Assembly (NCBI GenBank): GCA_035651955.1
Contig: DASRES010000001.1
Location: forward strand, 1 to 64,000
Length of the DNA: 64,000 nt
DNA from: Acidimicrobiia bacterium
Lineage (GTDB): Bacteria; Actinomycetota; Acidimicrobiia; IMCC26256; JAMXLJ01
Reading direction: 5' to 3'
Every line of letters starts with the position of its first letter. Positions within the stretch are counted from its first letter, which is position 1. Shown here one piece after another: positions 48,809 to 52,903 of the stretch. Made by a program: the position numbers and the translations under genes. The notes under the pieces were generated by a model that saw nothing but the letters and a program-made list of their open reading frames with translations, was not told where the DNA came from and searched no databases.

Positions 48809-49255
48809 TCAGATGCCGCGCGCCTCGTAGAGGTGGCGCCGGCAGAGCCCGTACGCGCGCCGCGGGGCGTCGCACCCGTCGACGGTGCACGGTCGAACCC
48901 GCTTCGCGCGGCGCTCCCAGTGGTCGAGCAGGCGCTCACGCCACGCGAGGTACTGGACGCGCTTGTGCGACGGAGGCAGGTGCTCGTCCATGAACGGCAC
49001 GATCACCTCGACGAGCTCGCGCGCCGATCCGACGACGAACGCGACCTCGTCGTCGTAGTGGGACTTTCGTCGCGGCGAGCGCGTGATGGATCCGACCGCG
49101 AAGAACGCGGAGAGCAGACCGCACATCCCGGCATCTGCCGCACCAAGTCCGACACTGAACGAGTATCGCCGCCCGTCGTTGGTGCCGGTGAAGCATCCTT
49201 CGGCGAGTACGAACGCGGCGGCGAACGCCGCGATCGCGTCAGTAACCGGTCGCAC
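48809..49255 (-). CDS. Single-motif LAGLIDADG protein, second of a tandem pair
   Basis: About 148 residues from a GTG at 49255. The LAGLIDADG-type helix is AAAFVLAEGCF, with the acidic residue in AEG. The following strand and helix pattern (FFAVGSITRS, then a VPFMDEHLPPSHKRVQYLAWR helix) parallels the neighbouring gene. It ends with C-x4-C and GLCRRHLYEA, a probable zinc-binding motif shared with its neighbour. Single-motif LAGLIDADG proteins act as dimers that cut DNA, so this one and the upstream protein may form a heterodimer. It overlaps the upstream frame by 17 bases. Confidence 0.75.
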   Translation of the reverse strand: MRPVTDAIAAFAAAFVLAEGCFTGTNDGRRYSFSVGLGAADAGMCGLLSAFFAVGSITRSPRRKSHYDDEVAFVVGSARELVEVIVPFMDEHLPPSHKRVQYLAWRERLLDHWERRAKRVRPCTVDGCDAPRRAYGLCRRHLYEARGI

Positions 49256-49754
49256 GATAGTAGTGAGACCGGCACAGTCCGCGGCCGCGCACGCACCCCT
49301 CGCATCCAGGTTCCGAGCACACGGACCGCGTGCGACGCGCTCGCGTCTCGTCGTACGCGAGGAACGCATCGCGCCACCGCTCGTACTGCGCCCGCTTGGC
49401 GGACGGGAGCAAGTACCGCTCCGCAAACGGAATGGTCGCGGCGTAGTGGCCGCGAAACGACGCGATCGTGAACGAGCTCATCGGCTGCCAGTGCGCGCGG
49501 GCAGGTCGGTGGTCGGTCACGCTCCCGAAGCCGAGGAACTCGCGGAGCGCCTCGAGGACGGGGCGATCTCGCGTCGCGACCGCAACCTGGAACACGAACC
49601 GCGTCCGCGTGCGGCCGTCCCGGCGGGGCGGGAGGCGAGACGTGAAGAAGGAGCCTTCCCCGGCGACGAACCCGCCGAGCAGGAACCCGAGCGACCGCCC
49701 GGTATGTCCGAAAGAGGTGGAGCTGACGGGAATCGGACCCGTGACCTCATCCAT
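49239..49754 (-). CDS. Single-motif LAGLIDADG protein directly after tRNA-Ala, start uncertain
   Basis: The coding part from the tRNA 3' end (49717) to 49239 gives about 159 residues: the motif FLLGGFVAGEGSF, then FLGFGSVTDHR, a helix RYLLPSAKRAQYERWRDAF, and the C-terminal C-x4-C/GLCRSHYYRA motif. No ATG, GTG or TTG lies between the tRNA and the LAGLIDADG motif. The nearest in-frame ATG (49752-49754) is inside the tRNA anticodon arm, and the frame stays open through the whole tRNA. A CTG at 49682 is possible. It is a homing endonuclease-like gene; cutting at the tRNA gene is an inference. Confidence 0.7.
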   Translation of the reverse strand: MDEVTGPIPVSSTSFGHTGRSLGFLLGGFVAGEGSFFTSRLPPRRDGRTRTRFVFQVAVATRDRPVLEALREFLGFGSVTDHRPARAHWQPMSSFTIASFRGHYAATIPFAERYLLPSAKRAQYERWRDAFLAYDETRARRTRSVCSEPGCEGCVRGRGLCRSHYYRATGY

Positions 49755-49790
49755 GCCATGGATGCGCTCTACCAACTGAGCTACAGCCCC
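49718..49790 (-). tRNA. tRNA-Ala (GGC)
   Basis: A minus-strand 73-base cloverleaf with acceptor GGGGCTG/CAGCTCC (one G-T pair), anticodon stem CATCC/GGATG with loop ATGGCAT giving GGC, and T-arm GGGTCCGATTCCC. The discriminator is A and no CCA is encoded. It looks intact. A LAGLIDADG frame runs straight out of its 3' end. Confidence 0.94.
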
Positions 49791-49914
49791 GGAGGGCGCA
49801 ACGGTACCAGCCATCAACCGCGCCTCGAATGCCTCGCACGTCGAACACATGTTCGGAGCATACGACGGGGGTCTGACAGCGAAAACGTGGACCGGCCTGC
49901 GCGGACCCGGCCGA

Positions 49915-49927: not shown

Positions 49928-52903
49928 GTGACCGCCACCCGCCGTTCCGCCTCGCCGGCCGGCGCCGACGCCCCTCGCTTCCGCTACGACGCCGCGCTCG
50001 CGAACGCGATCGAGGCGAAGTGGCACGACCGCTGGGACGCCGACCACACGTTCTGGACGCCGAACCCGCCGAGCGCGACCGGCGCGCTCAGCGAGGGCTT
50101 CGAGCGCATGGCGGATCGCTCGAAGCTCTACGTCCTCGACATGTTCCCCTACCCGAGCGGGTCGGGCCTTCACGTGGGCCACCCGCTCGGCTACATCGCG
50201 ACCGACGTGTTCGCGCGCTTCGAGCGCATGAACGGCCGCAACGTGCTCCACGCCATGGGCTACGACGCGTTCGGCCTCCCGGCCGAGCAGTACGCCGTGC
50301 AGACGGGCCAGCATCCCCGCGTCACCACCGCCGCGAACGTCGCCAACATGCGCCGGCAGCTGCGCGCGCTCGGGCTCGGCCACGACCCGCGCCGGTCGAT
50401 CGCGACCACGGACCCGGAGTACTACCGGTGGACCCAGTGGATCTTCCTGCGCATCTACGGCTCCTGGTACGACACCGAGCAGAACCGCGCGCGCCCGATC
50501 GACGAGCTGGTCGCGGAGTTCGAGTCCGGCGCGCGTGACGCGTCCCGCGACACCGCGGACGGCCGTGCGTGGAAGGACCTCGACGCGCGTGAACGGCGCG
50601 CGCTGGTCGACTCCTACCGGCTCGCGTACCTCGCGGAGGCGCCCGTGAACTGGTGCCCCGCGCTCGGGACCGTCCTGGCCAACGAGGAGGTGACCGCGGA
50701 GGGCCGCAGCGAGCGCGGCAACCACCCCGTCTACCGGCGGCCGATGAAGCAGTGGATGCTGCGCATCACCGCGTACGCGGAGCGCCTGCTCGCCGATCTC
50801 GACGCGCTCGACTGGACCGACTCGATCAAGCAGATGCAGCGCAACTGGATCGGTCGGAGCGTCGGCGCGCGCGTCGCGTTCCCGGTCGTGAACCACGACG
50901 ACCTGGACATCGAGGTGTTCACGACCCGTCCCGACACGCTGTTCGGCGCGACGTACATAGTGCTCGCGCCGGAGCACCCCCTCGTCGACGAGATCGTCCC
51001 CGTCGACTGGCCCGGTGGTGTGCAGCTCGACGCCTGGCAGGTCACGCCGAACGCGTGGCGCGGGGTGTTCGGCGCCGACGAGTCGCCGGCCGACGCCGTG
51101 GCGCGCTACCGGCGGTTCGCCGCGTCCAAGAGTGACGTCGAGCGCCAGGCCGAGACGCGCGAGAAGACGGGCGTGTTCACCGGCGCGTTCGCGTTCAACC
51201 CGACGAACGACCAGCCGATCCCGATCTTCATCGCCGACTACGTGCTGATGGGCTACGGCACGGGGGCGATCATGGCCGTGCCCGCGCACGACGAGCGCGA
51301 CTTCGAGTTCGCGAAGGAGTTCGAGCTCCCGATCGTCGGCGTCGTCCGTCCTCCCGACGCGTGGCTCGACCAACGCAACGTGGGTCCGGACACGCCGGCC
51401 GAGGGGTGGCCCGAGGCGTACAGCGGTGACGGCGTCGGCATGGCGTCGACGAACAACGAGGTGTCGCTCGACGGGCTGCCGACGCCCGAGGCGAAGCGCG
51501 TGATCGGCGACTGGCTCCTCGCGAGCGGCTTCGGCGAGCCGACGGTCAACTACAAGCTGCGCGACTGGCTCTTCTCGCGCCAGCGCTACTGGGGTGAGCC
51601 GTTCCCGATCGTCTACGACGAGGACGGCCTGCCCGTCGCGCTGCCCGACGACGCGCTGCCCGTCGAGCTCCCGGAGATCTCCGATTTCGAGCCCCGGATC
51701 GTGGGCGACGACGACACCCTTCCCGAGCCGCCCCTCTCGCGCGCCGAGGACTGGAAGACCGTCGAGCTCGATCTCGGCGACGGCCCTCGCCGCTACACGC
51801 GTGAGCTGAACACCATGCCGCAGTGGGCCGGTTCGTGCTGGTACTACCTGCGCTACCTCGATCCGACGAACGACGTCGCGCTCGTCGATCCCGAGGTCGA
51901 GCAGTACTGGATGCACGGTGTGCGCGCGGACGGTACCGCCGCGATCGGCGGCGTCGATCTCTATGTCGGCGGCGTCGAGCACGCCGTGCTGCACCTGCTC
52001 TACGCGCGGTTCTGGCACAAGGTGCTGTACGACCTCGGTCACGTGACGACGCCCGAGCCCTTCCAGCGCCTCTTCAACCAGGGCTACATCCAGGCGTACG
52101 CGTACGTCGACGAGCGCGGCGTGTACGTCGAGGCGTCGGATGTCGTGGAGCGCGACGGCGCGTACTTCCTCGGTGACGCGCCCGTCGAGCGCCAGTACGG
52201 GAAGATGGGCAAGAGCCTCAAGAACGTCGTCACGCCCGACGACATGTACCGCGACTACGGCGCGGACACGTTGCGCCTCTACGAGATGTTCATGGGACCG
52301 CTCGACCAGAGCCGCCCGTGGAACACGAACGACATCGTCGGCGTGCACCGCTTCCTCCAGAAGCTGTGGCGGAACCTGATCGACGAGTCGACCGAGGCGA
52401 CGCGCGTGACTGCCGACACCGCCGACGACGAGACGCGTCGACTCCTGCACCGCACGATCGCCGCCGTGCGCGACGACATGTCGACCCTGTCGTTCAACAC
52501 TGCGATCGCGCGGTTGTTCGAGCTCAACAACCACGTCTGGCGGGTATACGGCGAGCAAGCCGCCGTCCCGGCAGAGGTCGCACACGCGTTGGTGCTCATG
52601 GTCGCGCCCCTCGCGCCGCACGTCGCGGAGGAGCTGTGGGAGCGCATGGGCCACACCGAGTCCCTCGCGTACGAGCGGTTCCCCGAGCCCGACCCCTCGC
52701 TGCTCGTCGTCGAGCAGGTCGAGATCCCCGTACAGGTCAACGGCAAGGTCCGCGCGCGCGTCCTCGTCGCGCCGGATGCCGACGAGGCGACGACGAAGGC
52801 CGCGGCGCTCGACGACGCGCACGTGGGGGAGCTCCTCGCGGGGAGGAACGTCCGCAAGGTGATCGTCGTGCCGGGACGGCTCGTCAACGTCGTCGTCGGG
52901 TAG
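49928..52903 (+). CDS. leuS: Leucine--tRNA ligase
   Basis: A 991-residue class I synthetase of bacterial type. The HIGH motif is HVGH ([17 protein letters not shown]). The CP1 editing domain has [12 protein letters not shown] and [13 protein letters not shown]. The signature [12 protein letters not shown] precedes the KMSKS-type motif, which reads KMGKS. It charges tRNA-Leu. GTG 49928 is set by the N-terminus and the -10 box. The length is at the long end for bacterial LeuS, from inserts around residues 165-205 and in the editing domain. Confidence 0.96.

Follow-up and report, generated by a model that had tools for sequence, protein, structure and literature searches.

A LAGLIDADG gene pair at a tRNA-Ala(GGC) locus of Acidimicrobiia: a candidate SOS-controlled homing endonuclease whose gene appears to contain the tRNA

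The tRNA-Ala locus and its two LAGLIDADG genes

The window analysed here is a stretch of 64,000 nucleotides from an Acidimicrobiia genome. It carries an intact, uninterrupted tRNA-Ala(GGC) gene (ARAGORN, Rfam) associated with two LAGLIDADG genes, A and B. The start of leuS, on the opposite strand, is 138 bp from the tRNA, and on the other side the element is bordered by a small membrane-protein-like gene and hisH. A preliminary description of the locus had noted a frame open through the tRNA, and this was borne out: the frame of A is open from an ATG at 49850 across the tRNA to the stop ending at 49239. The same description stated that this frame had no ordinary start codon. This is correct for the interval from the tRNA end to the LAGLIDADG motif, where no in-frame ATG, GTG or TTG occurs, but not for the frame as a whole, since the ATG at 49850, which precedes the tRNA by 60 nt, is in the same frame as nuclease A. 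The features of the locus are the following:

49857..49862, minus strand: TATGCT, a putative -10 element for gene A, 6 nt 5' of the ATG (sequence)
49842..49855, minus strand: LexA/SOS box CGAACATGTGTTCG, which includes the ATG of A (exact box)
49239..49850, minus strand: gene A, an ORF of 203 codons running from ATG 49850 through the tRNA into the LAGLIDADG nuclease and the CCCH tail (open frame)
49836..49850, minus strand: N-terminal MCxxC peptide of A, 5' of the tRNA (conservation of Cys2 and Cys5)
49801..49829, minus strand: putative tRNA promoter within gene A (TTCGAG, 17 nt, TACCGT) (sequence)
49716..49790, minus strand: tRNA-Ala(GGC), entirely within ORF A (ARAGORN; Rfam RF00005, 65.6 bits)
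49653..49679, minus strand: LAGLIDADG motif of A (LGGFVAGEG) (profile match, alignment)
49263..49319, minus strand: C-x4-C-x9-C-x2-H tail of A (alignment; sub-threshold Zf_WRKY19 match)
48809..49255, minus strand: gene B, a LAGLIDADG protein of 148 aa starting with GTG 49255 and sharing 17 nt with the end of A (PF00961)
49196..49222, minus strand: LAGLIDADG motif of B (AAAFVLAEG) (profile match, alignment)
48833..48889, minus strand: C-x4-C-x9-C-x2-H tail of B (alignment; sub-threshold Zf_WRKY19 match)
49928..52903, plus strand: leuS, a neighbour conserved whether or not the pair is present; context, outside the element (gene-order comparison)

An intron in the tRNA was considered and rejected, as the tRNA is uninterrupted and no Rfam intron family was found between 48300 and 50200 at E values up to 0.1.

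Both proteins match PF00961 (LAGLIDADG_1) above its curated cut-off of 23.1 bits (A, 40.4 bits, E 6e-10; B, 24.6 bits, E 5e-5) and are 34% identical to each other, in agreement with the earlier account of a tandem pair of paralogous single-motif genes with a 17-nt overlap; an NCBIfam search gave nothing informative. The catalytic acidic residue that closes the motif is a glutamate in A (aspartate in the A of locus G259) and an invariant glutamate in B. The shared Cys/His tail noticed earlier is found in both proteins as C-x4-C-xn-C-x2-H and resembles a zinc knuckle. Its four ligand positions are invariant in 11 A proteins, and the tail is absent from two B proteins (L063, G259). In trees, all A proteins form one clade and all B proteins another (support 100/99), and the pair thus derives from one old duplication.

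In the predicted structure of A the nuclease core has high confidence, the N-terminal peptide forms a short helix, and residues 19-48, which are largely encoded by the tRNA, are disordered (pLDDT <50). The predicted structure of B is confident except for its first residues. Foldseek searches against the PDB matched both proteins to I-OnuI, I-SmaMI and I-AniI (3qqy, 4lox and 1p8k) with E values of 1e-6 to 1e-9, and by predicted fold A and B are I-OnuI-like half domains. These enzymes have the same half-domain fold, but they are single two-motif chains of organelle introns, whereas the pair described here consists of two genes with CCCH tails and no intron.

The upstream start, its SOS box and the frame through the tRNA

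The frame from the upstream start to the LAGLIDADG motif is open in 15 of the 15 loci that retain an ATG or GTG at the corresponding place, even though start and tRNA are separated by varied linkers (60, 61, 63, 66 or 75 nt). Two of these loci, G001 and G777, use another frame of the tRNA, which is still open. The start has been lost in L072 and L073 (ACC and ACG), and there it is also out of frame with the nuclease. At tRNA-Ala loci that lack the pair, the corresponding interval is open in 13-16 of 37 cases for the two usable frames and in 0 of 37 for the third. Given these proportions and a one-in-three chance of being in phase, 12 consecutive intact loci would be very unlikely to arise by coincidence, with some shared ancestry allowed for. 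Moreover, pN/pS over codons 4-11 (eight codons only) was 0.61 in the A frame versus 1.22 and 1.36 in the shifted frames, which shows apparent purifying selection on these codons in the A frame only. Cys2 and Cys5 are invariant across 14 loci, where their codons vary silently between TGT and TGC, but G777 lacks Cys5, from which it follows that the MCxxC peptide is favored rather than essential.

Two simpler explanations of the upstream conservation were rejected. First, it could be merely a tRNA promoter or a general feature of tRNA-Ala genes, but the start motif was present at 0 of 41 tRNA-Ala loci without the pair. Secondly, the MCSxC peptide could be a by-product of the SOS box, but MCxxC persists without the box in L070, L074 and G259; G777 is the converse case, retaining the box and losing Cys5.

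The box at ATG 49850 is an exact CGAAC-N4-GTTCG operator. Across the 4.1 Mb genome the motif CGAACNNNNGTTCG occurs at 30 sites, compared with 1 site for a reversed control pattern. Frames beside 16 of the 30 sites were translated, and among the genes, recognised by eye rather than by profile search, were recA, ruvC (whose GTG start is nested in the box), uvrA, a DinB-like polymerase and imuA-like and DnaQ-like genes. Since the box sites form a classic LexA regulon, gene A is very likely SOS-controlled, as far as sequence can tell. Among 15 loci with the pair the box is exact in 7 and has one mismatch in 4, and it was found at 0 of 37 tRNA-Ala loci without the pair. Counting against SOS control, the box has been lost in G259 and L070, yet their A frames look intact. 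The TAnnnT hexamer 6 nt 5' of ATG 49850 would fit a leaderless mRNA, and similar hexamers were seen by eye at the matching place in several other loci with the pair. Leaderless expression of a LexA-controlled gene has a precedent among Actinomycetota in lexA of M. tuberculosis, whose true start codon is at the transcription start, upstream of the start that had been annotated (PMC2897130), although neither a tRNA nor a nuclease is involved there. As a separate observation, six DUF222/13E12-like HNH genes of the genome (L135, L137, L140, L142, L143 and L144) have, by eye, apparent SOS boxes at their starts.

These results do not support the earlier proposal that the nuclease genes are expressed from the tRNA transcript. 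The conserved start lies in the SOS box, and the promoter of the tRNA itself comes after it; the mRNA must consequently begin upstream of the tRNA transcript. The TAnnnT element about 20 nt 5' of the tRNA is present in loci without the pair too. A model close to the earlier one would have the normal tRNA transcript translated from a start inside or after the tRNA, either a codon of the anticodon arm or an unusual one such as CTG or ATT, with the upstream box only regulating transcription. Most loci do have an ATG, GTG or TTG in the right frame inside the tRNA, and although 9 of the 12 intact loci lack a start codon between tRNA and motif, a TTG or GTG is found there in G048, G259 and L070 (the last by eye). 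However, G001 has no ATG, GTG or TTG inside or after its tRNA, and in G777 the start in the SOS box is the only in-frame ATG, GTG or TTG before the motif. Internal initiation also leaves unexplained why the frame 5' of the tRNA is open in all 15 loci and why start and frame were lost jointly in L072 and L073. We therefore regard it as improbable, and prefer translation from the upstream start through the tRNA.

Distribution, mobility and decay of the pair

Relatives were sought in the order (58 genomes), the class (395), the phylum (397) and a second order (298), and in named genome contigs. We found 18 distinct loci with the pair family, mostly from MAGs, in Acidimicrobiia or unclassified Actinomycetota bins. 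In 17 of the 17 loci with upstream sequence the pair is directly 3' of tRNA-Ala(GGC), as the preliminary description had it for the window; chance is excluded, because 18 loci carry the family and the tRNA is the same wherever it can be assessed. Two patterns named at the outset as speaking against a mobile tRNA-linked pair, genes far from any tRNA and fixed single-copy orthologues in all relatives, were looked for and neither was seen. One contig filed under a Bifidobacterium breve MAG (L066, CAMDCC010000192.1) carries an Acidimicrobiia-type leuS, the tRNA-Ala and gene A; it is a contig of G042 and is probably mis-binned.

Weaker relatives (E about 1e-18 or worse) nearly all adjoin 23S rRNA motifs with no tRNA nearby, a setting recognised from rRNA motifs and, for L006, also by Rfam. 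These bacterial 23S rRNA-gene LAGLIDADG proteins (E about 1e-18 to 1e-8) are the nearest other relatives found, but they sit in the 23S gene, away from tRNA-Ala, and the aligned part is mostly the nuclease domain, excluding the CCCH tail. L006 itself (G000:C53, about 920-1260) is this genome's third LAGLIDADG protein; it lies inside a 23S rRNA gene near the highly conserved stretch GTAACTATAACGGTCCTAAGGTA, probably in an intron. A LAGLIDADG_3 (PF14528) domain was also found in an open frame of 1271 codons (L001, G000:C81), possibly an intein. A phage origin of the pair was rejected: the viral contigs searched held no relative, and the phage matches were a false lead, comprising an archaeal-virus LAGLIDADG protein (26% identity) and two tRNA genes hit through the tRNA-coded tract.

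The linkage of leuS and tRNA-Ala is old and is found with and without the pair. The suggested mobility, with presence and absence at a fixed insertion point, is best seen in two genomes of the same genus, G034 with the pair and G032 without it, which share 95% identity at the leuS end and 93% downstream. Between these flanks they differ in an unrelated segment just 5' of the tRNA -10 (177 versus 65 nt) and in the sequence just 3' of the tRNA (959 versus 101 nt). As the differences lie on both sides of the tRNA, the insertion is two-armed with the tRNA at its centre; the comparison fits a gain in G034 or a loss in G032 alike. G007 likewise has the tRNA followed by hisH, with no pair. Furthermore, the tree of A rejects the grouping of G000 with G001, which belong to the same genus and are sisters by LeuS (p 0.007); the trees of B and of A+B gave no clear rejection (0.069 and 0.075). 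Transfer of the pair between lineages is likely, though the trees back it only in part.

According to an opposing view, the pair is an old vertical resident, often lost, which is immobile or domesticated, for example as a regulator of the tRNA locus or a maturase. LAGLIDADG proteins can act as maturases, losses can give patchy presence, and the identities of LeuS and A are correlated (0.65, from too few taxa). The degraded state of A in five loci (G022, G017, L072, L073 and L074) can be cited for such a view; it is also as expected for selfish genes. Against it stand the acidic motif residue, which is kept in both A and B, the absence of any intron in the tRNA to be matured, the contrast between G034 and G032 within flanks that are 93-95% identical, and the rejection of G000+G001 by the A tree. 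We hold vertical residence to be unlikely, and continue with the mobile pair as the preferred reading.

The subunit composition also bears on the interpretation. Single-motif LAGLIDADG enzymes such as I-CreI are homodimers, and A and B could each form homodimers with different targets, their arrangement being a mere tandem duplication. B looks intact in three loci with a damaged A (L072, L073 and L074), which fits homodimers, and B may serve some purpose by itself. However, the two genes occur together and overlap across the family, and in the two-domain enzyme aHE15 the C-terminal half is the best match of A and the N-terminal half the best match of B, a pattern consistent with a heterodimer replacing a two-domain chain. 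The presence of an A remnant and B in one frame in two loci also argues against independent homodimers, which we consider rather unlikely; the heterodimer is the arrangement we favor. In L072 (2926-3900) and L073 (2744-3547) this yields a fused frame with two motifs. L072 has kept the core of A up to the last helix, with a GTG following the tRNA, and its fused frame might be a working single-chain form.

Proposed mechanism, precedents and target

We think it probable, from sequence comparison, that the pair is a free-standing homing endonuclease under SOS control, probably a heterodimer, with the tRNA lying inside its gene. Upon DNA damage, inactivation of LexA would free the promoter just 5' of ATG 49850. 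The transcript, probably leaderless, would be translated through the tRNA-Ala sequence, as a disordered linker, to give subunit A, and the overlapping stop and start would give subunit B. Together, A and B would make up an I-OnuI-like meganuclease, one half each, which would cut the tRNA-Ala(GGC) gene in a chromosome that the pair has not invaded; recombination would then copy both arms, with the tRNA between them, as one unit. RNase P and RNase Z, in maturing the tRNA, would cleave this same transcript, and transcription from the tRNA promoter inside the gene would give RNAs without the start, keeping nuclease output outside the SOS response very low. The fuller picture would be that of a coding gene holding a complete, functional sense tRNA gene with its promoter and translated in whichever frame is open, in which the tRNA stretch serves as the linker of a nuclease attacking uninvaded copies, tRNA maturation keeps expression in check, and the whole travels as a cassette with two arms. 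We see this as evenly poised between right and wrong.

The nearest functional precedent is SegB of phages T4 and T6, a free-standing GIY-YIG homing endonuclease that adjoins tRNA genes and cuts in the tRNA region (PMC13096335, PMC2988022). Free-standing endonucleases of T4 use RNA structure and processing to keep down their own expression (PMC2988022), so that SegB resembles the pair in being free-standing, tRNA-linked and held down at the RNA level. However, SegB is a single phage protein with no fixed tRNA isotype, whereas the pair is chromosomal and LAGLIDADG_1 alone scored above the curated cut-off in A and B, with no GIY-YIG assignment. The segB gene has no tRNA inside it nor, as far as reported, an SOS box (PMC13096335, PMC2988022). 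A second likeness is to integron integrases, which are described as SOS-controlled and are thus also mobile-element enzymes under host LexA control; they are tyrosine recombinases, unrelated both as enzymes and in gene architecture (PMC3108266).

Searches of the open-access literature turned up neither a LAGLIDADG pair linked to tRNA-Ala nor a homing endonuclease under SOS control, and no conserved gene that reads through an entire tRNA. tRNA genes are favorite targets of mobile DNA, and to our knowledge the known elements integrate beside them or bring introns into them. If translation through the tRNA holds, the gene architecture itself would be new. It would mean that a selfish protein gene and a tRNA gene overlap in the same sense, that homing is tied to the moment of RecA induction, and that a conserved bacterial site is the target of what is probably a natural heterodimeric meganuclease; in sum, it would give a testable picture of a selfish gene hiding inside an essential one. 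Since short frames through tRNAs are easily dismissed as spurious ORFs, similar cases may go unseen.

The tRNA is taken as the probable target because, between the arms of the insert, the tRNA and its -10 are the only stretch common to alleles with and without the pair. A protective signature of the carrier allele was sought in the aligned tRNAs and none was found, so that the immunity of carriers is a point against the model. The T-loop of the window's own tRNA-Ala(GGC) (49716-49790, minus strand) reads GGGTCCGATTCCC, compared with TTC in the other 56 aligned tRNAs, so that the usually invariant U55 is a C; this could reflect decay, an error in the sequence or a change that protects the nuclease target.
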